A DNA stretch of 64,000 nucleotides from Acidobacteriota bacterium (lineage in GTDB: Bacteria > Acidobacteriota > Thermoanaerobaculia > UBA5066), in contig JAKOVQ010000014.1 of the NCBI GenBank assembly GCA_029781975.1, positions 62,001-126,000 of the forward strand, given 5' to 3'. Made by a program: the position numbers and the translations under genes. Below, one piece after another: positions 51,201-62,545 of this stretch. Within the stretch, counting starts at the first letter, position 1. Each line of letters opens with the position of its first letter. Under the pieces are notes generated by a model. That model was not told the origin of the DNA and ran no database searches. It saw only the letters and a list, made by a program, of their open reading frames with translations.

Positions 51201-51822
51201 GCTCCGAGATCATGTTGTAGTCGATCGAGATGCAGCTCTCGACGAGCGTCGTGAAGGAGGGCGGGATCCCGCCGGAGAGCTGGTTCGACGAGACGTCGAT
51301 CCAGTAGAGCGACGTGCCGGTCACGTCCGGGAGCGGGCCGCTCAGCCTGTTGTCGGAGGCCGAGAAGTAGGAGAGGGACGAGAGGCCCGCGAGAGTCGGG
51401 ATGGTCCCCGTCAGCCGGTTGCTCCCGACGTAGAAGTAGCTGAGGAAGGGGAGTCCCGTGAGCTTCGGGATGCTTCCCGTCAACCGGTTGCTCGAGACGT
51501 CGAACGAAGAGAGCTGGGGCAGGCGGGTGAGCGCGCCCGGGAGGGTCCCCGTCAGGCGGTTGTTCCAGAGGCTGATCCCGTTGACGAAGGGACTGTCGTT
51601 GATGTAGGTGCAGGAGACGCCGTACCACGAGCACTCGGTCCCGGCGGGGCCGTTCCAGCCGGTCTGGTTCGTCCAGCCCGGGCCGTTCGTGCTGGCGTAG
51701 AGGTCCAGCAGGTACTGGCGCTCCGTGGCCGGGATCTGGGATTGGGCGGTCGCCGGAAGCGCCGAGAGAGCCAGGGCGGCTGCGAGGGCGGAGCCCAGGA
51801 GCCGGGGAGACCTCATGTGCAT
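48202..51822 (-). CDS. Large secreted LRR and fibronectin-like surface protein
   Basis: A 1206-residue exported protein. Signal peptide (LLGSALAAALALSALPATA), then a plant-type leucine-rich-repeat region (about 25-220) with an N-cap (LYASTNGPGWTNQTGW, CSWYGVSC) and repeats such as SNRLTGSIP. Two fibronectin-III-like domains follow (about 240-450). Then an ASPM/SPD-2-like beta domain (AEVEVKNVGATAGSISFS) and a series of modules like those of the carboxylesterase at 31-34 kb (RTNLILVETSG; NRCNLVLAETSG). No catalytic residues. Probably a surface adhesion or matrix protein. The ATG at 51822 follows AAAGGAG. Confidence 0.9.
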   Translation of the reverse strand: MHMRSPRLLGSALAAALALSALPATAQSQIPATERQYLLDLYASTNGPGWTNQTGWNGPAGTECSWYGVSCTYINDSPFVNGISLWNNRLTGTLPGALTRLPQLSSFDVSSNRLTGSIPKLTGLPFLSYFYVGSNRLTGTIPTLAGLSSLSYFSASDNRLSGPLPDVTGTSLYWIDVSSNQLSGGIPPSFTTLVESCISIDYNMISEPNQARVDFVNQHQCGGQVGARAPLVPSFPQDFRLTQTVAPTDLAVPVLSATDARVSWKRIPYMDDPGFYEVFTSTSPDGPFQPAGQTASKSDGSLLVAGLAPGTTYYFNVRTTTLAGPQNQSTLTSGPSATASFTTAGSGCPPPDAPVLSTATTAVNGGQSFLVTWTVPASVPAGSTFVVETSRGPDFSTLESTLETAAAAAVLTAPRADAPYDLYVRVRALSSCGSVGSDSAPLRFTVALAPTTFAFTRSSPAWIVAAGDAPPTAEVEVKNVGATAGSISFSARGGLFDVSPAALTLAPGAKGTVTLSVHADAVASPGVAEGLLVGTWGNESLSTQGALTVTSVPIPPGSHAGSKVHASATSILFLAPKGETPAPQTLTLTVPHVAGSGPLYLAPTIGPGGSWLVLSNELSQPLPESGQVTISLSVDRSRRATADGGPPLRALVTFAPVGGNPEDAAVVEVIDQESWTLSSGAGARSGLSIRSLASSAPVSGFLVPTTAKTEGGNGAVFSGDGWLRNLGATDAPVAAFFTPRDEDGLTGTGVLEAQSTIGPGQTVRLADLLGSVFQTTGSGQVELRSPAAAGLSLRTTVDSVTGGDPALGFGTEIPALASGAGAVKDGPPLVLPGISDDAANRCNLVLAETSGAAVGAKVDLYAPAGALLGSTTANVPPYGQVQINRIVQVIAPGQTVTGGWLEVSVTSGTGRLAAVATVLDNRSNSFSAVSGLPLPASAPAPAARVRPADASPLAFVVPTLVKATGANGTQYLTGLNVVNGLATPANLSLTYHYTDLTDGSSKVATGTLQLPGRRALDQALARDFITNVLGVTVPSRGWLEVTGDVANVTAVATISTLVDPSDPAKGLNSAQVSGFLTTSGAVMQLGTAETRFAGSEKSVVKRTNLILVETSGQPASVRLRAYSPTGQLLAEKLLDIPANAYYQVSDVFGDAGLGLGAGPFQNVEVAAQVVDGAGGVVGVVTVVGNLSRNPQIFVMQNAGPPPAIGF

Positions 51823-51872
51823 GGCAACTCCTTTCACACGCAGCCCAGCCCCCCTCCGGATTCCTGCCGGTC

Positions 51873-51902
51873 AATATGAGGGGCGGGTGCGGCCCGTGTC
51901 AA
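51873..51902 (-). promoter_or_regulatory. Sigma-70-type promoter for the LRR gene
   Basis: On the minus strand TTGACA (51902-51897), an 18-base spacer and CATATT (51878-51873). Transcription would start near 51866, 44 bases before the ATG. Confidence 0.6.
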
Positions 51903-51975
51903 TCGACCCCGCGTGTCGCCGGGTCCGTGGCGTGAGGCGGAGCCTCCGCGCGGCGCGACTCCCTGCCGGGCGCGC

Positions 51976-53880
51976 TCAGATCCTCGTGTCGGTGGCGTAC
52001 CTCTCGGCGATACCGTCGAGGAGGCGCGAGAGGAGGCGGCAGATCCCCTTCAGGGTGCTCCGCTCGAGGGAGCTCAGCTGCCGGGGGTCGACGTGGTTGT
52101 CCGGCTCCAGGTCCATCGCGATCTGGTCGTGCTGGTGCCGGATCCTCAGCAGGGAGACGAACTCGAACGCGTGCGTGAGGTCGTCCGCCGTCGCCTGCGC
52201 GAGCCGGCCCGCGGACCTCAGCGCGGCGATTCGCCCGGTCGTGGAGGTCTCGGCGAGGTTGCTCTCGAACCCGAGGAGCCGCACGACGTTCACGAGGGGC
52301 GTGAGGCAGCATCGCTTCAGGTCGATCTGGTTCGCGTGGTCGCCCCCCTTCTCCATCTGGAGGGTGCCGAAGAGGCCGAGCGGGGGGCGGTAGTCGACGG
52401 CCTGGCAGGCGACCGCCTTGAGGAAGAACGACTGCCCTTCGAGCGAGCGGTGCAGGTGGAGCTTCAGCTCCGCGGCGAGGCGCAGGTCGCCGTGGAGCCC
52501 GCGGAAGTCGAAGAGGTTGAGCGCTCCCGCCAGCGCCGCCTCGTCGGGCGTGCCGATCCAGCCGCTGAACGTCCTCTTCCACCGGGCGAGCGGGGCGCGC
52601 CATTCCGGGTTGGTGGCCATGAAGCCTCCCCGGCAGAGGGCGAAGCCGCACCTGAGGAAGGCGTCGACGACGAGCTCGGCGAGCCTGCCGAAGTACTCCG
52701 CGGCCGCCTGCGCCTCCTCGTCGTTCCGCGGGTCGGCGTGGACGATGGCGTTGTCCTGGTCGGTCTTGAAGGTCTGCTCCCTCCGGCCCGCGCTCCCGTA
52801 GACGATCCAGCAGAAGGGGACGGGCGGGGGGCCCAGCGTCTCGAGGGCGAGCTCGAGGATCCGGTGCTCGAGGCGGTCGTTCACCGCCGAGATCACGCGG
52901 ATGACGCTGCCGGCCCCGGCCCCCTCGCGCAGGAGGAGGGAGACGAGCCCCCGGACCCTCCGGGCCGAGGCCGCGAGGCCTTCCACGGTGGTCCGCCCCT
53001 CGATCTCCCGGGCGAGGACGAGCGGCGACGTCCCCTGCAGGACCAGGAAGTCGTGGCAGCTGACGATCCCCGCCAGCCTCCCGCCGTCCATCACCGGCAG
53101 GTGGTCGACCCCGTGGCTCATCATCTTGAGGAGCGCCTCGAAGCAGGAGTCGCGGGCGCCCACCGTGATGAGGGGCGCGCTCATCACCTCGCCGGCCGGC
53201 GTGGAGGGGCTCCGCTGCACCGCGAGGACGCGGTCGCGCAGGTCCGTGGAGGTCACGATCCCGGCCGGGAGCCCGCTCTCGTCGACGACCACCAGCCCGC
53301 CCACGCGCCTCGCGGACATCAGCTGCGCGGCCTCGAGGACGGTGGCGCTCGAGGAGACCGTCTGGACGTCGCGGGTGGCCAGGTACTCCACGGGGGTCGT
53401 GAAGAGGGCGGTCTCCGACCCCTCCCCGATCGCCTCCCGCGCGGGGGAGACCGGGGAGAGCCCCGCCTCCTTCTTCGGGAAGTACGCCGGCAGGAAGTAC
53501 TCCTTCAGCTCGGGATGCCCGTCGAGGAACGCCAGCGCGGCGGCACCGTCGGCCACGTAGCAGACGGTGTCGGTCACGGCCTGCACGGACGTGTCGATGG
53601 GATCGTCCTCGCCCCGGGAGAGGAACCCGAACGACTCCCCCGCCCCGCGGAAGTCGATCACCCGCTCCTGGCCCGTCGGCGTGGTCGCGTAGATCCGGAC
53701 GGTCCCCTCGCGGATGACGTGGAGGGTGCGGCAGGACGGGGCCCCCTGGCGCAGGATGTGGACGCCGGACGGGTAGACGACCATCCTGAGGGACCCGACG
53801 AAGCCGTCGAGCGCCTCGTCGTCCAGCAGCCTGAACGGGGCCTGCTCCCGCAGGAACTCCCGCGCTCCCGTGCCCGGCAT
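51976..53880 (-). CDS. cNMP-CBS-DUF294 signalling nucleotidyltransferase (copy 2)
   Basis: A 634-residue paralogue of the protein at 39-41 kb with the same order: cNMP-like domain (about 10-130), CBS pair (about 165-290), nucleotidyltransferase core with YGSAGRREQTFKTDQDNA, and the DUF294 helical domain. The cNMP loop (SFGFLSRGEDDPIDTSV) again lacks the conserved Glu and Arg. It diverges from the receiver/exonuclease/kinase operon with only 69 bases between, so both are probably controlled together. A TATGAT -10-like box at 53906-53901 overlaps one on the other strand. GAGGAG precedes the ATG at 53880. Confidence 0.92.
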   Translation of the reverse strand: MPGTGAREFLREQAPFRLLDDEALDGFVGSLRMVVYPSGVHILRQGAPSCRTLHVIREGTVRIYATTPTGQERVIDFRGAGESFGFLSRGEDDPIDTSVQAVTDTVCYVADGAAALAFLDGHPELKEYFLPAYFPKKEAGLSPVSPAREAIGEGSETALFTTPVEYLATRDVQTVSSSATVLEAAQLMSARRVGGLVVVDESGLPAGIVTSTDLRDRVLAVQRSPSTPAGEVMSAPLITVGARDSCFEALLKMMSHGVDHLPVMDGGRLAGIVSCHDFLVLQGTSPLVLAREIEGRTTVEGLAASARRVRGLVSLLLREGAGAGSVIRVISAVNDRLEHRILELALETLGPPPVPFCWIVYGSAGRREQTFKTDQDNAIVHADPRNDEEAQAAAEYFGRLAELVVDAFLRCGFALCRGGFMATNPEWRAPLARWKRTFSGWIGTPDEAALAGALNLFDFRGLHGDLRLAAELKLHLHRSLEGQSFFLKAVACQAVDYRPPLGLFGTLQMEKGGDHANQIDLKRCCLTPLVNVVRLLGFESNLAETSTTGRIAALRSAGRLAQATADDLTHAFEFVSLLRIRHQHDQIAMDLEPDNHVDPRQLSSLERSTLKGICRLLSRLLDGIAERYATDTRI

Positions 53881-53899
53881 CTCGCTCCTCGGCGGCGGG

Positions 53900-53906
53900 T
53901 ATCATA
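53900..53906. promoter_or_regulatory. Overlapping divergent -10-like boxes
   Basis: TATCAT (53900-53905, plus) and TATGAT (53906-53901, minus) overlap in the 69-base gap between the DUF294 gene and the response-regulator operon. No clear -35 on either side; promoter use on both strands would be mutually exclusive. Confidence 0.35.
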
Positions 53907-53949
53907 AGTTCCTGCAACGGAGTAGGTCCACCTCGGGAGGGAGCGGACG

Positions 53950-54327
53950 ATGCCTCGAATCCTCATCGTCGACGACGAGCCGAACATCGTTCTCGCCCTC
54001 GAGCTGCTCATGAAGCGGGAGGGGTACGAGATCCTCGCGGTGGACGACGGCGAGAAGGCGGTGAAGGCCGTCGAGAGCTTCCGCCCCGACCTCGTCCTCC
54101 TCGACATCATGATGCCGCGGATGGACGGGTACGAGGTGTGCCAGCGGATCCGCGCAAACGCGTCGCTGAAGGACCTCTACATCGTCATGCTGACGGCCAA
54201 GGGGCGCGAGGTGGAGATGGAGAAGGGGCTGGCCCTCGGCGCGGACCTCTACATCACCAAGCCCTTCTCGACGCGGGAGGTCGTCCGGAAGGTCAAGGAG
54301 GTCCTGGCGGCGAAGCCGGGGGCCTGA
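53950..54327 (+). CDS. Stand-alone response-regulator receiver
   Basis: A 125-residue CheY-like receiver with no output domain. The acidic pocket is Asp8/Asp9, the phospho-acceptor Asp52 (LLDIMMPRMDG), with Thr82 (MLTAKG) and Lys104 (ITKPFS). First gene of the operon that ends with the symporter-kinase, its probable phosphodonor. GGGAGG lies before the ATG. It most likely acts by protein contact, perhaps with one of the neighbouring gene products. Confidence 0.93.
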   Translation: MPRILIVDDEPNIVLALELLMKREGYEILAVDDGEKAVKAVESFRPDLVLLDIMMPRMDGYEVCQRIRANASLKDLYIVMLTAKGREVEMEKGLALGADLYITKPFSTREVVRKVKEVLAAKPGA

Positions 54328-54356
54328 AGGCGCGGCGCGAGGAGGACCATTCGCCG

Positions 54357-56420
54357 GTGGCCGGACGACCGCCCCCCTCGATCCTCCTGGCCTGCGGGGC
54401 GCTCCTCTGCGCGGCGTTCTTCGCCGGCCTCGGATGGCTCCTGCCTTCCGGGGCAGGCCCCCCGGAGGCCCGCGCCGAGGCCCGGCTCGTCCTCGCCGGC
54501 GCGGCGGTCCTCGCCTTCCTCCTCCTCGCGGGCCTCGTGGCCGCCGTCCAGCTGCTCGTCCTCCGGCCGCTCGAGCACCTCGCCCGGGAGCTCCGGATCG
54601 TCGGCGTCAACCCCGATCGGACGCTGGAGCTGCCGCGCCGCCACCTGCTGGGCGACCTCCCTCAGGCGCTCCAGGCCGTCGCCGCCACGATCGGGAAGGC
54701 GAGGAGAGCGCCCGACGAGGGGGGCGCCGGGAGCCCGAGCGATTCCGAGGGGCGGCAGGCCCGCCTCGAGGCGATCCTCACCTCGCTCCGGGAGGGAATC
54801 CTCGTCTGCAACGACCGCTCGCGCATCGTCTTCTACAACCCCGCGGCCCGGAAGGTCTTCCGGGAGAACCCCGCCCTCGGGATCGGCCGCTCGCTCTCCC
54901 TCCTGGTGGCGTCCGCTCCGATCGAGGACGTGCTCCAGCTGCTCCGGCAGCGCCAGCTGCGCCGGCACGAGGCGCGCGAGGGGGACGAGGACGTCTCGTT
55001 CGTCTGCGCCACCCTCCAGGGCGGGATGGTCAGCTGCCGGGCGAGGCTCCTCACCGGGTTGCCCGGCCTCCCCTGGTCGTTCCTCCTGACCTGCGAGGAC
55101 GTCAGCGGCGAGGCCCACGCCCTCGGTCGGAGGGAGGGCGTCCTCCGCTCCGCCGTCAAGGGGATGCGCGCGCCCCTGACCGGCCTCGGCCTGGCCGCCG
55201 AGAGCCTCGAGCTGCTCCCCGACATCGAGGCGGCCCACCGCGCCGTGCTGGAGCAGGCGATCGCGCGCGACGCCCGCCTCCTCATCTCGCAGTTCGACGC
55301 CCTCGCCCGGGCGGTGGAGGAATGGGAGGCGCCCCGCTTCCTGGCCAACGACGTCTTCGTGGAGGACCTCGTCGCCTGCGTGGCGCAGCGCCTGGAGGCG
55401 AAGGGGACGCGGCTCACGATGATCGGCGACCCGCTCTGGGTGCAGGCCGACGTCCACGCGCTCCTCTTCCTCCTCGAGTTCTTCGCGCTCGGGATCGTCC
55501 GCTCCTGCGGCGTCCGGGCGATGGAGATCGAGACCCTCCTGGGCGACAAGCGGGTCTACTTCACCTACTGCTGGAAGGGGGCCGTCGTCCCCCAGCCCGA
55601 GATCCAGGGGTGGATGTCCTCGCCGGCGGAGTCGCTGGGAGCGCACACCGTGGGCGAGGTGCTCGAGCGCCACGGCAGCGAGGTCTGGAGCCGGCCCCAC
55701 GAGACGGCGGGCTTCGCGACGCTCTCGTTCCCCGTCCCGTCCTCCCCCAGCCCGTGGAAGCCCCCGCGGCCCGCCCTCCCGGCCCGCGAGGTCTACGTCG
55801 ACGTGCCCGCCGCCGGCGAGATCGTGGAGACGGACGGCCGGGAGGGGCTGCCGCTCGACCGCGTCGCCTTCGTCGTCTTCGACACGGAGACGACCGGCCT
55901 CGCGCCGGAGGCGGGCGACGAGATCGTCTCCCTGGCCGGCGTCAGGATCGTCGACCGGGGCATCGTCGTCGGCGAGACGTTCGACCGGCTCGTGGACCCG
56001 GGGCGGAGCATCCCGCCGTCCTCCACGCGATTCCACGGGATCACCGACGAGACGGTCCGGGGGCGCCCGCGCATCGACGAGGCCCTGCGCGCCTTCCACG
56101 GGTTCGTCGGCTCCGCCGTCCTCGTCGGGCACAACGCGGCGTTCGACATGCGTTTCATCCGCCTGAAGGAGCGTCAGGCCGGGGTCCGCTTCCGCGGGCC
56201 GCTCCTCGACACGCTCGCGCTCTCGCGCTACCTGCACGACCACACCCCGGCCCACTCCCTGGACGCGGTCGCGCGGCGGCTGGGGGTGGAGATCCGCGAC
56301 CGCCACACGGCGCTCGGGGACGCCCTGGCGACGGCCGAGGTCTTCCTCCGGCTCCTCTACCTCCTGCAGGACCGGGGGGTCCGGACGCTGGGCCAGGCGC
56401 TCGAGGTCTCGGCGCGGTGA
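54357..56420 (+). CDS. Pseudo-histidine-kinase fused to a DnaQ-type 3'-5' exonuclease
   Basis: About 687 residues. Two membrane helices (about 5-30 and 45-66) are followed by a HAMP-like stretch, a PAS domain (REGILVCNDRSRIVFYNPAA, about 140-240) and a degenerate kinase core. The HisKA-like helix reads VKGMRAPLTGLGLA where SHELRTPLT is expected, so the phospho-accepting His is missing. The ATPase region has no N-box. Residues 500-680 are an intact exonuclease: DTETTG (Asp509), LVGHNAAFDMRF and RHTALGDALAT. The GTG at 54357 is chosen after AGGAGG, 29 bases past the receiver stop; the start is uncertain. The exonuclease family is known near acetate-permease/DUF294 genes. Confidence 0.85.
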   Translation: MAGRPPPSILLACGALLCAAFFAGLGWLLPSGAGPPEARAEARLVLAGAAVLAFLLLAGLVAAVQLLVLRPLEHLARELRIVGVNPDRTLELPRRHLLGDLPQALQAVAATIGKARRAPDEGGAGSPSDSEGRQARLEAILTSLREGILVCNDRSRIVFYNPAARKVFRENPALGIGRSLSLLVASAPIEDVLQLLRQRQLRRHEAREGDEDVSFVCATLQGGMVSCRARLLTGLPGLPWSFLLTCEDVSGEAHALGRREGVLRSAVKGMRAPLTGLGLAAESLELLPDIEAAHRAVLEQAIARDARLLISQFDALARAVEEWEAPRFLANDVFVEDLVACVAQRLEAKGTRLTMIGDPLWVQADVHALLFLLEFFALGIVRSCGVRAMEIETLLGDKRVYFTYCWKGAVVPQPEIQGWMSSPAESLGAHTVGEVLERHGSEVWSRPHETAGFATLSFPVPSSPSPWKPPRPALPAREVYVDVPAAGEIVETDGREGLPLDRVAFVVFDTETTGLAPEAGDEIVSLAGVRIVDRGIVVGETFDRLVDPGRSIPPSSTRFHGITDETVRGRPRIDEALRAFHGFVGSAVLVGHNAAFDMRFIRLKERQAGVRFRGPLLDTLALSRYLHDHTPAHSLDAVARRLGVEIRDRHTALGDALATAEVFLRLLYLLQDRGVRTLGQALEVSAR

Positions 56421-56710
56421 GGGAGCCCGGGAGAGAGCCGCCGGGGGCCCGCCGCGGAGAGGTCCCGCCGGACGACGAGCGGCGGACGGCCGAGCGGCTG
56501 GTGGCCCTCCTCCTCGCCGGAGGCGCGCTCCTGAACTTCCCGCTCCTCTCCGTCCTCCGGGACCGGGGGACGATCGGCGGGATCCCCGTCCTCTACGCCT
56601 TCCTCTTCCTCGTCTGGGCGCTCCTCGCCGGGGCCACCGCCCTCGTCCTCCGCGAGCGGCCGGCGCCGCCGGACGCGGACGACGACGAGCCCGGGCCGCG
56701 GGAGCCGTAG
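56417..56710 (+). CDS. Small two-helix membrane protein of the kinase operon
   Basis: A 97-residue protein with a charged N-terminus and two predicted membrane helices (about 30-47, AERLVALLLAGGALLNFPLL, and 59-80, YAFLFLVWALLAGATALVL), ending in an acidic tail. Not recognised. Its GTG overlaps the TGA of the exonuclease fusion, and the next gene starts two bases after its stop, so all are coupled. A small membrane partner is usual for SSS-type proteins; it may assist the symporter-kinase. Confidence 0.75.
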   Translation: MREPGREPPGARRGEVPPDDERRTAERLVALLLAGGALLNFPLLSVLRDRGTIGGIPVLYAFLFLVWALLAGATALVLRERPAPPDADDDEPGPREP

Positions 56711-56711
56711 C

Positions 56712-59417
56712 GTGCTCCCGCACGGGCTCATCCTCCTCGTCGGGTTCGGCTACCTCGGCCTCCTCTTCGCCGTCGCCTCCTACGGCGACAAGCGGGCCGA
56801 CGCGGGGCGCTCGATCATCAGCAACCCGTACATCTACACCGCCTCGATCGCGGTCTACTGCACGGGCTGGACCTTCTACGGCAGCGTGGGCCGCGCGACC
56901 GCGGTGGGGGTGGGGTTCCTCCCCATCTACCTCGGGCCCACGCTCGCCGCGACCGTCTGGTGGCTGGTCCTGCGGAAGATCGTCCGCCTGAGCAAGGCCA
57001 ACCACATCACCAGCATCGCGGACTTCATCGCCTCGCGGTACGGGAAGAGCTCGGTGATCGGCGGCCTCGTGACCGTGATCTCGATCGTCGGCATCATGCC
57101 GTACGTCGCCCTCCAGCTGAAGGCGATCTCCTCCAGCTTCAACGTCCTGTTCCACGGCCGCTCCGGCGGGGCGAGCGCGCCGAGCCTCGGCCACGACTCG
57201 GCGCTCTACATCGCCCTCATCCTCGCCGTCTTCGCCATCCTGTTCGGCACGCGGCACATCGACGTCACGGAGCGGCACGAGGGGCTCGTGGCGGCCATCG
57301 CGTTCGAGTCGGTCGTGAAGCTCGTGGCCTTCACCGCGGTCGGGACGTTCGTGACGTTCGGCCTCTTCGACGGCCCGGCGGACCTCTTCCGGCAGGCGGC
57401 CCGCGTGCCGCAGGCGGCCCCCCTGATGGACCTGGCCTGGGGGCCGCAGCAGTACTCGTCGTGGGCGGCGCTGACGGTGATCTCGATGGCCGCGATCATG
57501 TTCCTCCCCCGCCAGTTCCAGGTCCTCGTGGTCGAGAACGTGAACGAGGCCCACGTCCGGACCGCGGCGTGGCTCTTCCCGCTCTACCTCCTCGCCATCA
57601 ACCTCTTCGTCCTCCCGATCGCCCTCGCCGGCCTCGTCGTCTTCCGGGGCGGCGCGGACGCGGACATGCTCGTCCTGACCCTGCCGCTCCACGGCGGGCG
57701 CGAAGGGCTGGCGCTGTTCGCGTTCATCGGCGGGCTCTCCGCCGCCACCGGCATGGTGATCGTCGAGACGATCGCCCTCTCGACGATGATCTGCAACGAC
57801 CTCGTCATCCCGGTCTCGCTGCGCCTCCAGGTCCTCCGTCCGGGGAGCCTGGGGACGACGCTGCTGGCCATCCGCCGCGGGGCGATCGTCCTGATCCTCC
57901 TCCTGGGATACGTCACCCTCCGGCTGATCGGCGAGTCGTACGCGCTCGTCTCCATCGGCCTGGTCTCGTTCGTCGCGGCGGCCCAGTTCGCGCCGCCGAT
58001 CCTCCTGGGGATCTACTGGAAGGGGGCGAGCCGCCGCGGCGCGCTGGCGGGGCTCACGGGCGGGGCCCTGGTGTGGGCCTACACGCTCCTGATGCCGTCC
58101 GTCGCGGGCTCGGGCTGGCTCCCCCTGTCGCTGGTCGAGCCCGGCCCCTTCGGCATCCGGGCGCTCGGGCCCTACCACGTCCTGAACATGACGGGCTTCG
58201 ACCCCGTCACCCACTCGGTCTTCTGGAGCCTCCTCGTCAACGTCGGCCTCCTCGTCGGGGTCTCGCTCGCCGGCCGCCAGAAGGGGCTCGAGCGGCTCCA
58301 GGCCTCGCTCTTCGTCGACGTCTACCGGGCGCGCGTCTCCGATGCGGAGGAGGCGCACCTCTGGCAGGGGACGACCCGGGTGAGCGACCTGAAGGGCCTC
58401 GTCGCCCGGATGATGGGGCCCAAGCGCGCGGACGCGGTCTTCGGCGCCTACGCGGCGCAGCACGGCGTCGTCCTCCAGGGCGACCTGCAGGCGGACGAGC
58501 ACCTCGTCGGCTTCGTGGAGCGCGAGCTCGCGCGGACCGTCGGCGCGGCCTCCGCGCGCGTCATGGTCTCCTCGATCATCGAGGGGGAGGCCCTGAGCAT
58601 CGAGGGGCTGATGAAGATCCTGGACGAGACGTCGCAGGTGATCGAGTACAGCCACAGGCTGGAGGAGAAGTCGCTCGAGCTCGAGGAGGCCAAGCGGAAG
58701 CTGGAGCTGACGAACGCCCGGCTGAAGGAGCTGGACGCCCTGAAGGACGAGTTCCTCTCCACCGTGAGCCACGAGCTGAGGACCCCCCTGACGTCGATCC
58801 GGGCGTTCTCCGAGATCCTCCAGGACGACGAGGAGATGAGCCCGGAGCAGCGCCGGAAGGTCTCGGGGATCGTCGTGCAGGAGACCGAGCGCCTCTCGCG
58901 CCTCGTCGAGCAGGTCCTCGACTTCTCCCGGATCGAGGCCGGCTCGTACAGCTGGGCGAGGGAGAGCGTCGACCTGGCGGCCGTCGTGGACGAGGCGCTC
59001 GCCGCCACCGGCCAGATCGCGCGCATCCGGGGCATCGAGGTCTCCCGGGAGGTCCCCGGGGGGCCCCTCCTCGTCGTGGGCGACCGGGACCGGCTCGTCC
59101 AGGTGGTCATCAACCTCCTCTCGAACGCGCTCAAGTACTGCGAGCCCGAGAGCGGCCCCGTGCGCGTGACGCTCTCCGGGACCTCGACGGAGGCCCGGGT
59201 CGAGGTGGCCGACCGCGGCCCGGGCATCCGGCGGGAGGAGCACGAGCGGATCTTCGAGAAGTTCCACCAGATCCGGGACTCCGCCGGGGGAAAGCCGAAG
59301 GGGACGGGCCTCGGGCTGGCGATCTGCAAGACGATCGTCGAGGGCCACGGCGGCCGGATCTGGGTCGAGAGCGAGCCGGGGCACGGCGCCCGGTTCGTCT
59401 TCACCCTCCCGGTCTAG
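56712..59417 (+). CDS. CbrA-like sodium-symporter/histidine kinase
   Basis: A 901-residue protein. The first 530 residues are an SSS permease domain with about 13 helices (PYIYTASIAVYCTGWTFYGS is typical of this kinase group). A linker and coiled coil (KSLELEEAKRKLELTNARLKEL) follow. Then comes a HisKA domain with the phospho-accepting His687 in STVSHELRTPLTS, and an HATPase domain with the N-box NLLSNALKY, DRGPGI, and GTGLGLAI. CbrA and related kinases sense or carry small carboxylates or amino acids and phosphorylate a partner regulator. Here the partner is probably the receiver at 53950. The start is GTG, two bases after the previous stop. Confidence 0.93.
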   Translation: MLPHGLILLVGFGYLGLLFAVASYGDKRADAGRSIISNPYIYTASIAVYCTGWTFYGSVGRATAVGVGFLPIYLGPTLAATVWWLVLRKIVRLSKANHITSIADFIASRYGKSSVIGGLVTVISIVGIMPYVALQLKAISSSFNVLFHGRSGGASAPSLGHDSALYIALILAVFAILFGTRHIDVTERHEGLVAAIAFESVVKLVAFTAVGTFVTFGLFDGPADLFRQAARVPQAAPLMDLAWGPQQYSSWAALTVISMAAIMFLPRQFQVLVVENVNEAHVRTAAWLFPLYLLAINLFVLPIALAGLVVFRGGADADMLVLTLPLHGGREGLALFAFIGGLSAATGMVIVETIALSTMICNDLVIPVSLRLQVLRPGSLGTTLLAIRRGAIVLILLLGYVTLRLIGESYALVSIGLVSFVAAAQFAPPILLGIYWKGASRRGALAGLTGGALVWAYTLLMPSVAGSGWLPLSLVEPGPFGIRALGPYHVLNMTGFDPVTHSVFWSLLVNVGLLVGVSLAGRQKGLERLQASLFVDVYRARVSDAEEAHLWQGTTRVSDLKGLVARMMGPKRADAVFGAYAAQHGVVLQGDLQADEHLVGFVERELARTVGAASARVMVSSIIEGEALSIEGLMKILDETSQVIEYSHRLEEKSLELEEAKRKLELTNARLKELDALKDEFLSTVSHELRTPLTSIRAFSEILQDDEEMSPEQRRKVSGIVVQETERLSRLVEQVLDFSRIEAGSYSWARESVDLAAVVDEALAATGQIARIRGIEVSREVPGGPLLVVGDRDRLVQVVINLLSNALKYCEPESGPVRVTLSGTSTEARVEVADRGPGIRREEHERIFEKFHQIRDSAGGKPKGTGLGLAICKTIVEGHGGRIWVESEPGHGARFVFTLPV

Positions 59418-59449
59418 CGCCGCCGCGGCGGCGGGAAAGGCGGTCGACC

Positions 59450-59845
59450 ATGGCAGTACGGACGTTTCGCCTCGGGTCGCCCCGGCAGCGCGGCGAGGGC
59501 CTTCGCCTGGGGACCGTCCGGTTCCTTCCGCGAGGGGTCCGGTCGGAGGACTACGCCCGGCTCGACCTCTTCGACGTCTGGCTCCCCACGCTCGCCCCCT
59601 CGCCGGAGACGATGAAGGCCTTCCGAGCCGGAGAGCGGTCGCCGCGGGACTGGAGGCGGTTCGTCGCCGCCTACACCGCCGAGATGGCGAAGACCGACCC
59701 CCGCCAGGTCATCCAGGCCCTCGCCGCCCTCTCCCGCACCACCCGGTTCGGGGTCGGCTGCTTCTGCGACGACGAGGCCCGGTGCCACCGGTCGGTCCTC
59801 ATCCGGCTGCTCGCCGCGGCCGGCGCCGAGGTCGAGGGGGGCTGA
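59450..59845 (+). CDS. DUF488 family protein
   Basis: A 131-residue protein matching DUF488: FDVWLPTLAPSPETMKAF, then RRFVAAYTAEMAK and the cysteine-rich end GVGCFCDDEARCHRSVLIRLL, where Cys-x-Cys-x5-Cys-His is conserved in the family and suggests metal or redox chemistry. The function is unknown. The ATG at 59450 has AAAGG about 11 bases upstream. It lies 32 bases after the symporter-kinase stop, so it may be the last gene of that transcript. Confidence 0.85.
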   Translation: MAVRTFRLGSPRQRGEGLRLGTVRFLPRGVRSEDYARLDLFDVWLPTLAPSPETMKAFRAGERSPRDWRRFVAAYTAEMAKTDPRQVIQALAALSRTTRFGVGCFCDDEARCHRSVLIRLLAAAGAEVEGG

Positions 59846-59971
59846 CCGGCGAGAAGGACGTCCGGGCGGGTCCGGGCCCCGGGGGGACCCGGCCCTCGCG
59901 GCGCTTCCACCCCTCCCGCTCCCGCACGATTCGGAGCTCGGTGTCCCCCCGGCGTACGCTCCGCCCCGGAC

Positions 59972-62545
59972 GTGAGCCTTTCCAGCGGTTCGAAGCTCGG
60001 CCCCTACGAGGTCCTCGCCCCCCTCGGGGCGGGCGGGATGGGAGAGGTCTGGCGGGCGAAGGACTCGCGCGTCGGCCGGAACGTGGCGCTGAAGGTCCTC
60101 CCCGAGGAGCTCTTCGCCGACGAGGAGCGCCGGACGCGCTTCGAGCGCGAGGCGCGGATCCTGGCGAGCCTCAGCCATCCGGGGATCGCGGTCCTCTACT
60201 CCTTCGAGGAGATCGCCGGGCGCCACGTCCTCGCGATGGAGCTCGTCGAGGGGGAGACGCTCCGCCAGCGGATCTCCGAGGGGGCCCTCCCCGTGCGCAA
60301 GGCCGTCGACCTCGGGGCCCAGATCGCGCGCGGCCTGGCCGCGGCGCACGAGAGCGGCATCGTCCACCGGGACCTCAAGCCGGAGAACGTCGTCCTGACG
60401 AAGGACGGGCGCGCGAAGATCCTCGACTTCGGGCTCGCCAGGCAACGGACCGTCGCGGGCGAGGAGGACACCCGGTCGCCGACGCTCGCGCGGGCGACCG
60501 ACGCCGGCACCCTCCTCGGCACGGTCGGCTACATGGCGCCCGAGCAGGTCCGTGGGGAGCCGGCAGACGCCCGGTCGGACATCTTCGCGTTCGGGTGCGT
60601 CCTCCACGAGATGCTCACGGGGTCGCGCGCGTTCAAGGGCAGCTCGGCGGTCGAGACGATGAACGCGATCCTGAAGGAGGAGCCGGCCAGCCCGGACCCC
60701 CCGGGAAAGGTCCCCGCCGAGCTCGAACGGCTCGTCAGGCACTGCCTCGAGAAGAACCCCGCCGAGCGCTTCCAGTCGGCCCGCGACCTCGCGTTCGACC
60801 TCGAGGCGCTCGCGGGGAGCTCCGCGAGCGGCCGCGCGGCACCATCGGCGACGTCCCGCGCTCCCCGCCGGTGGGTGCCGGCGGCCGCCCTCGCCCTCGG
60901 GATCGCCGCGGTCGCGGCGTCGTACACCGTCGGGCACGCGAGGGGAAAGCGCTCGATCGTCGCCGTCCCCTCCTTCGCGCAGCTCACGTTCCGGCAGGAG
61001 CCGATCTTCAACGCCCGGCTCGCGCCCGACGGGAAGACGGTGGTCTACAGCGCGGCGACGTCCGGGAACACGCCGGAGATCTTCGCGCTCCGGTCGGACT
61101 ACCCGGGAGCCAGCCCGCGCTCCCTGCTGCCCAACGGTCACCTCCTCTCGATCTCGTCGCGGGCCGAGCTGGCCGTCCTGATCCGCGCGCGTTACCGCGC
61201 GCATAGCCTCTTCGAGGGGACGCTCGCGCGGATGCCGCTGGAGGGGGGCGCGCCGCGGGAGGTCCTGGACGGCGTGCGAGAGGCCGAGTGGTCTCCGGAC
61301 GGGGCGGAGCTCGCCCTGATCCGGGACGTGGGCGGCAAGGACAGGCTGGAGTTCCCGGCCGGGAAGGTCCTGTGCGAGACGGGGGGCTACTTCAGCGGCC
61401 TCCGGTTCTCCCCGCGCGGGGACCGGATCGCGCTCTTCGAGCACCCCTTCCGGTACGACGACCGCGGCGAGGTCGCCCTGGTGGACCTCGCGGGGAAGAA
61501 GACCGTCCTCTCCGGGGGCTACTGGGGCGAGGAAGGGCTCGCCTGGTCCCCGACGGGCGACGAGGTCATGTTCTCGGCCGGGGACGCCTACAACAACTTC
61601 CGCGTCTACGCGGTCGACCTCTCGGGCAGGCGCCGGACGGCCCTCGAGAGCGCCGGCGGCCTGACGATCCACGACATCCGGAGCGACGGCCGCTGGCTGA
61701 CGACGCGCGACGACTTCTTCAGGGAGATGCCTGTCCTCGCCCCCGGCCAGGAGCGCGAGCGGGACCTGTCGTGGCTCGACCTGTCCGACCCCGCCGCCCT
61801 GAGCCCGGACGGAAGGACGCTCCTCTTCATGGAGGAGAGCGGGAGCGTCGGCGTGAACTACGCGGTCTGCCTGCGGAAGACCGACGGGTCGCCGGTCGTC
61901 CGCCTCGGCGAGGGGGCCGCCCTCGACCTCTCCCGCGACGGGAAGTGGGCCCTGGCCGCGGTGCCGACGACGCCTCCGCAGCTCGTCCTCTATCCCACGG
62001 GCGCCGGCGACCCGCGCCGGCTCGAGCGCGGAGGGCTCCTCAGCTACGAGTGGGGTCAGTTCTTCCCGGACGGGAAGAGGGTCGTCGTCTGCGGCCACGA
62101 GGAGGGGAAGGGGGTCCGGTGCTACCTACAGGACGTCGCGGGCGGAAAGCCCCGCCCCGTGACGCCCGAGGGGACGCGACAGGCGTTCGTGTCGCCCGAC
62201 GGCAGGGAGATCCTCGTCCAGACGAGCGGCGGCGCCCTCTCGATCTTCCCCGCCGAGGGGGGCGAGGGACGGTCCGTCGAGGGGGCGACGCCGGACGATA
62301 CGGTCATCCGGTGGGGAGCGGACGGCCGGTCGCTGCTCCTCTACCGTGGGGATCAGGTCCCGGCGCGGATCGAGCGCCTCGAGGTCGCGACGGGGAAGCG
62401 TCAGGCTGTCCGGACGATCGGCCCCGCCGACCTCACCGGCGTCCTGAGCACCGGCCCCTTCGTCTTCACCGACGACGGCAAGGGCTACGCGTACGCCTGC
62501 CGGCGGATGGTCTCGCACCTCTTCCTGGTGGAGGGAGCGCGTTGA
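59972..62545 (+). CDS. Ser/Thr protein kinase with C-terminal TolB/WD40-like propeller
   Basis: An 857-residue membrane kinase. The kinase domain (about 10-275) is complete: GAGGMGEVWRA loop, VALKVLP (catalytic Lys), HRDLKPENVV, DFGLAR and GYMAPEQV. One membrane helix follows (WVPAAALALGIAAVAASYTV, about 304-323). The outer part is a six-to-seven-blade TolB/PD40-type beta-propeller (RLAPDGKTVVYSA, EWSPDGAELALI, RFSPRGDRIALF, AWSPTGDEVMF). The architecture is very common in Acidobacteriota. The kinase faces the cytoplasm and the propeller probably senses envelope ligands. The GTG start has a TACGCT -10-like box 11 bases upstream and no Shine-Dalgarno. Confidence 0.93.
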   Translation: MSLSSGSKLGPYEVLAPLGAGGMGEVWRAKDSRVGRNVALKVLPEELFADEERRTRFEREARILASLSHPGIAVLYSFEEIAGRHVLAMELVEGETLRQRISEGALPVRKAVDLGAQIARGLAAAHESGIVHRDLKPENVVLTKDGRAKILDFGLARQRTVAGEEDTRSPTLARATDAGTLLGTVGYMAPEQVRGEPADARSDIFAFGCVLHEMLTGSRAFKGSSAVETMNAILKEEPASPDPPGKVPAELERLVRHCLEKNPAERFQSARDLAFDLEALAGSSASGRAAPSATSRAPRRWVPAAALALGIAAVAASYTVGHARGKRSIVAVPSFAQLTFRQEPIFNARLAPDGKTVVYSAATSGNTPEIFALRSDYPGASPRSLLPNGHLLSISSRAELAVLIRARYRAHSLFEGTLARMPLEGGAPREVLDGVREAEWSPDGAELALIRDVGGKDRLEFPAGKVLCETGGYFSGLRFSPRGDRIALFEHPFRYDDRGEVALVDLAGKKTVLSGGYWGEEGLAWSPTGDEVMFSAGDAYNNFRVYAVDLSGRRRTALESAGGLTIHDIRSDGRWLTTRDDFFREMPVLAPGQERERDLSWLDLSDPAALSPDGRTLLFMEESGSVGVNYAVCLRKTDGSPVVRLGEGAALDLSRDGKWALAAVPTTPPQLVLYPTGAGDPRRLERGGLLSYEWGQFFPDGKRVVVCGHEEGKGVRCYLQDVAGGKPRPVTPEGTRQAFVSPDGREILVQTSGGALSIFPAEGGEGRSVEGATPDDTVIRWGADGRSLLLYRGDQVPARIERLEVATGKRQAVRTIGPADLTGVLSTGPFVFTDDGKGYAYACRRMVSHLFLVEGAR

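Follow-up and report, generated by a model that had tools for sequence, protein, structure and literature searches.

A predicted membrane exonuclease fused to a dead histidine kinase core recurs beside a single-domain receiver, an SLC5-type sensor kinase and a DUF294 protein

Introduction

What could a histidine kinase core that seems to have lost its catalytic residues do when it is joined to an exonuclease that seems to have kept its own? The question is raised by a gene in a stretch of 64,000 nucleotides (hereafter, the window) from an Acidobacteriota bacterium (contig JAKOVQ010000014.1, positions 62,001 to 126,000 of the forward strand; coordinates below are those of the window). An initial annotation of this DNA described a membrane protein with a PAS domain, a catalytically dead kinase and an intact DnaQ-type exonuclease, flanked by genes for a receiver and a sensor kinase, and proposed nucleotide or nucleic-acid turnover as a signalling output. 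One dead kinase core with a known role is that of DivL, whose DHp serves as a phospho-specific sensor of the receiver DivK~P (PMC4211667). Here, we follow up the fusion gene, its relatives and its neighbours.

Results

The fusion gene (54357..56420, forward strand) starts with GTG at position 54357, just downstream of an AGGAGG sequence, and runs for 687 codons to a stop at 56418-56420; its open reading frame, Pfam, alignment and AlphaFold2 together describe a 687-aa TM-PAS-pseudohistidine-kinase-DEDDh exonuclease. Pfam matched PAS (residues 136-215) and RNase_T (506-663, E 1e-36) in the protein, the latter (PF00929) at 127 bits against a curated cut-off of 24 and with the model covered from 1 to 164 of 164, and returned no match to HisKA or HATPase_c. 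An AlphaFold2 model built with 41 family members had a mean pLDDT of 82 and a pTM of 0.46, so that its domain folds are usable and their mutual arrangement is not. It places, in order, two N-terminal helices of hydrophobic sequence (residues 7-31 and 36-84; 54375..54608), a PAS domain (residues 135-250; 54759..55106), a DHp hairpin (residues 250-321; 55104..55319), a CA-like, that is HATPase-like, domain (residues 331-462; 55347..55742), a disordered linker (469-491) and the predicted 3'-5' exonuclease domain (residues 500-687; 55854..56417), all on the forward strand. The two helices and the PAS match thus agree with the membrane-bound, PAS-containing N-terminus annotated initially. Within the PAS domain, residues C151, G177 and R178 (54807-54890) are invariant in a 41-row alignment, and a ligand or redox role for them is possible.

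The kinase core has kept its fold and lost its chemistry. Its H-box-like motif, VKGMRAPLT, begins at residue 267 and puts K268 at the phospho-His position, with R271 and L274 kept, as the H-box Arg and Leu are in the family alignment. Phospho-His is missing in 73 of the 74 alignment rows: the site is occupied by Glu in 53 rows, by R, Q, T, K and other residues in the remainder, and by His in a single relative from Noviherbaspirillum (L055), in which the N-box is absent all the same. The inspected rows (alignment of residues 345-470) have neither the N-box asparagines nor the G-boxes. The reading of a Lys in place of the phospho-His and of a missing N-box is therefore borne out, and the alternative that a conserved His lies elsewhere in the DHp was rejected, since the family alignment contains none. 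When the family profile was compared with solved structures, residues 215-468 matched a VicK-type kinase (4i5s, E 9e-18) and residues 249-407 the pseudokinase DivL (4q20, E 6e-4), and Foldseek searches with the modelled core returned WalK, LOV-HKs, VicK and DivL. Hence, by profile and predicted structure, the DHp-CA fold that marks kinase ancestry is retained, while the phosphorylatable His and the N- and G-boxes are gone. That the core still acts as a kinase through another residue is extremely improbable; the one relative with His would speak for it, whereas the loss of the N- and G-boxes in the rows inspected and the variability of the acceptor site speak against it. From its distribution, we infer that the loss of kinase chemistry is old and shared.

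The exonuclease site, by contrast, is constrained, because all 74 rows carry the five DEDDh residues (D509, E511, D597, H650 and D655) unchanged while the kinase motifs have disappeared. The exonuclease part of the family profile matched PolC (E 1.5e-50) and DnaQ, and VIA-align placed the domain with PolC (Z 25.2, rmsd 1.7 over 189 residues); among solved structures, it comes nearest to the exonucleases of PolC and DnaQ and to RNase T and Exo X. Together with the full-length RNase_T match, this leaves the annotated intact active site standing. The fusion shares its fold and all five active-site residues with these DEDDh exonucleases (DnaQ epsilon, PolC exonuclease, RNase T and Exo X) but differs from them in being joined to a pseudokinase of signalling type and to a membrane anchor.

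A scan of genome contigs yielded 80 loci, 73 of which were aligned with the query to give the 74 rows. About 70 full-length relatives occur in Nitrospirota, Gamma-, Beta- and Alphaproteobacteria, Desulfobacteraceae, SAR324, Chloroflexota and others, and the conservation of the whole fusion over several phyla rules out a chance join or a frame artefact. The combination, which had been called unusual at the outset, is not a curiosity of one genome: it forms a recurrent family in a conserved operon, and its generality had been understated. None of 60 relatives of the source genome carries the full fusion, which makes the source the sole carrier of the 61 genomes searched, and the nearest proteins come from Nitrospirota (53-56% identity to the query); lateral acquisition of the operon (51976-59417) is therefore likely. 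In Accumulibacter, the fusion gene is apparently broken at two loci (L026 and L080), with the N-terminal and exonuclease parts in separate frames or the exonuclease cut, reflecting either decay or assembly error. Accumulibacter adjunctus has two fusion copies in one genome (L038 and L039), one inside the operon and the other with no receiver, kinase or DUF294 gene nearby.

The neighbourhood had been described as a receiver and a sensor kinase. Both were recovered by domain matches on the two sides of the fusion gene, but that description had missed the DUF294 enzyme, the single-domain nature of the receiver and the type of the kinase. In the window, a reverse-strand gene (51976..53880) for a putative nucleotidyltransferase of cNMP_binding-CBS-CBS-DUF294-DUF294_C make-up, with its GSAGRREQ..DQD motif intact, is followed on the forward strand by a 125-aa single-domain response regulator (53950..54327; phospho-acceptor Asp, Thr and Lys intact), the fusion gene, a small hydrophobic ORF (56417..56710) whose start overlaps the exonuclease stop (GTGA), and a transporter-type sensor kinase of the CrbS/CbrA kind (56712..59417; SLC5 (SSF)-HisKA-HATPase, His intact). 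The small ORF, which is conserved before the SLC5-type kinase (SLC5-HK), matched no Pfam or NCBIfam model, and Rfam gave no match over 51500-60000. In relatives the set recurs, and a frequent arrangement is small ORF, SLC5-HK, receiver, fusion and DUF294. The SLC5-HKs at family loci retain HELRT and the N- and G-boxes, and the adjacent receivers are short (a domain of about 120-130 aa), with Asp, Thr and Lys preserved. Because such a receiver is short and carries no output domain, it should need a protein target, and the fusion encoded next door bears a kinase-derived domain.

To describe co-occurrence, we surveyed 397 Pseudomonadota genomes, fetched the flanks of the best matches and scored domain make-up with our own profiles. 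Among the 100 loci of the pseudohistidine-kinase (pHK) type with at least 500 bases upstream, a receiver gene is adjacent at 83, an SLC5-HK is present at 63 and DUF294 lies within 3 kb at 66; the 17 loci that have no adjacent receiver by the criteria used include some merged frames and second copies. At related exonuclease loci of other make-up, with no clear pHK, an adjacent receiver was found at 1 of 33, and this exception (L162) retains a DHp-like remnant by eye. The association of pHK with an adjacent receiver is strong when the loci are counted as independent (Fisher p 3e-17), although the rows are related and this value is uncorrected for kinship. A tree of the exonuclease domains shows at most six changes of pHK, only two of them on well-supported branches; in random pairings on the tree, the receiver changes in the same way as pHK or stays equal, never the opposite. 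A kinship-corrected test of pHK against receiver on this tree did not reach significance, which lies out of reach because the independent changes of pHK are too few.

The same survey bears on the possibility that the pseudokinase is a dimerisation or signal-relay module only, with PAS or membrane signals controlling the exonuclease and the receiver acting elsewhere. Several loci (L081, L082 and L147-L156) encode TM-PAS-exonucleases of about 470-570 aa that adjoin DUF294 and have neither a pseudokinase nor a receiver, so that in some lineages a PAS-exonuclease seems to suffice. We nevertheless consider a relay-only role unlikely, given that pHK and the adjacent receiver occur together and that weak-pHK proteins with no receiver have, by eye, a shortened DHp. 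The latter proteins (L159, L160, L161, L165 and L167) lie next to DUF294 and are possibly a decaying pseudokinase. DUF294 is found within 3 kb at 14/14 PAS-only and 5/5 weak-pHK loci.

A profile of the pseudo-DHp ranked every SLC5-HK DHp (about 48; at least 29.7 bits) above all other kinases of the panel (at most 28.0 bits). At the positions of response-regulator specificity, which we take to be those known from work on HK853, identity between the pseudo-DHp and the SLC5-HK DHp is 0.25, against 0.26 elsewhere. These residues show no enrichment, and we discarded them as proof of a shared interface; the lack of special conservation towards the SLC5-HK would also fit a relay-only role. Since the ranking is positive and the specificity positions are null, descent of the pseudo-DHp from an SLC5-type kinase is favoured, while a receiver docking surface common to pHK and SLC5-HK is only compatible with the data, and the similarity may reflect descent alone. 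The closeness of the two DHps raises another option, namely that the pseudokinase heterodimerises with the SLC5-kinase of the operon, an interaction in which either partner might tune the other and which would take the place of receiver reading; RetS with GacS provides a precedent for such a heterodimer. We regard this as distinctly improbable, because the DHp cores are alike in part only and the receiver gene is a steadier immediate neighbour than the kinase gene (83 vs 63 of 100, a count biased by short contigs).

The nucleotidyltransferase motif GSxGRxE..DxD was recovered in 105 of the 106 DUF294 partners; the remaining one is truncated at the end of its contig. At five loci (L172-L176) an exonuclease, two CBS domains and DUF294/DUF294_C form one polypeptide; Pfam confirmed RNase_T, two CBS, DUF294 and DUF294_C in L172 (4537-6648, reverse strand) and L174 (5996-8464, forward strand). 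These chains contain the same kinds of exonuclease and partner as the window but, unlike the fusion, have no TM, PAS or pseudokinase. The neighbourhood, the single-chain fusions and the PAS-exonucleases that lie beside DUF294 with no pHK together indicate that the exonuclease-DUF294 pair is the common core, to which, judging from these domain arrangements, the membrane PAS and the pseudokinase are attached in different lineages.

A related pair has been studied in Pseudomonas. In P. putida, the SLC5-HK system MxtR/ErdR controls an operon of PP_0353 (RNase_T) and PP_0354 (CBS-DUF294); the exonuclease mutant is delayed on pyruvate and the DUF294 mutant is not, which weakens the notion of a simple exonuclease/DUF294 pair, and the authors suggest mRNA decay, leaving the matter unsettled (PMC9927547). 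In P. fluorescens, a DUF294 protein belongs to the CrbS/R regulon and gave no phenotype (PMC5715377), and PA3232-PA3235 are induced on propionate (PMC9765439). PP_0353/PP_0354 (the PA3232/PA3233 region in P. aeruginosa), targets of MxtR/ErdR = CrbS/CrbR, thus resemble our locus in pairing an RNase_T exonuclease with CBS-DUF294 and in their tie to an SLC5-type kinase, there with acetate and pyruvate use (PMC9927547, PMC5715377). They differ in that PP_0353 is a separate exonuclease, whereas here the exonuclease is joined to a TM-PAS-pseudokinase, and in that their transcription is under a DNA-binding regulator, whereas the receiver of our operon has no output domain.

These data also frame the possibility of a conventional 3'-5' nuclease that has mRNA or DNA as its target and whose substrate is unrelated to DUF294; this view bears on the substrate alone and leaves room for receiver control. 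The nearest solved folds of the exonuclease and the mRNA decay considered for PP_0353 (PMC9927547) favour such an activity, while the repeated adjoining of exonuclease and CBS-DUF294, up to their fusion at five loci, argues against it; on balance we find it plausible enough to keep in mind, though not probable. The initial proposal of nucleotide or nucleic-acid turnover as an output remains plausible and is strengthened by the DUF294 partner.

Discussion

An SLC5-HK, a single-domain receiver, a membrane PAS-pseudokinase-exonuclease and a CBS-DUF294 protein are recurrently encoded together across the genomes sampled. The best-supported reading, to which we give about an even chance, is that the receiver reads into the pseudokinase and that the exonuclease is the output of a conserved two-component circuit; we favour it because the phospho-His is lost but the DEDDh residues are invariant, the kinase fold is kept and the receiver co-occurs. 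In such a circuit, the SLC5-kinase would respond to a solute, for instance a small carboxylate, by phosphorylating the receiver, which would then, like DivK~P on DivL, dock on the dead DHp; docking and PAS input together could alter the dimer geometry and, in turn, how active the C-terminal exonuclease is or how readily substrate reaches it. This exonuclease and the DUF294 enzyme would act in one pathway, in which the former would most likely turn over something that the latter makes or modifies, either an oligonucleotide or a nucleotidylated protein, and thus be the eraser to the DUF294 writer. This step is the least certain of those proposed. The broader conjecture that a membrane exonuclease switched by the phospho-receiver erases what DUF294 writes, so that transporter-kinases would signal by reversible nucleotidylation or a nucleotide messenger and not by transcription, is one we advance tentatively and hold to be rather doubtful, the more so as the exonuclease and DUF294 mutants of P. 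putida have no phenotype in common.

The closest parallel to receiver reading is Caulobacter DivL, which combines the same modules, i.e., PAS, a DHp-CA fold with the phospho-His replaced and a single-domain receiver partner; however, DivL retains the other kinase boxes (N, G1, F and G2), which the fusion family lacks in the case of the N- and G-boxes, and has no exonuclease, and its reading of DivK~P was established by experiment, whereas here receiver reading is deduced (PMC4211667). The kinase at 56712-59417 shares the SSF-HisKA-HATPase architecture of the SLC5/STAC histidine kinases CrbS, CbrA and RpuS. Those kinases work with a regulator that has a DNA-binding domain, whereas a single-domain receiver adjoins the SLC5-HK here, and at this locus the pair departs from the CrbS/R type, in which the response regulator binds DNA.

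The modules are each known; their combination was not found described in the open-access literature, in which we looked for exonucleases with DUF294, PAS-DnaQ-kinases and pseudokinase-exonuclease fusions. Some matches for 'DUF294' concerned DUF2946 and were set aside. If receiver reading is correct, the locus would represent a two-component system that has an exonuclease under the control of a dead kinase as its output and acts through nucleotide hydrolysis rather than gene switching. It would also offer a testable entry to DUF294, a putative nucleotidyltransferase, and might help to make sense of the late growth of the Pseudomonas PP_0353 mutant on pyruvate and of the way in which transporter-kinases that have no DNA-binding regulator may act.
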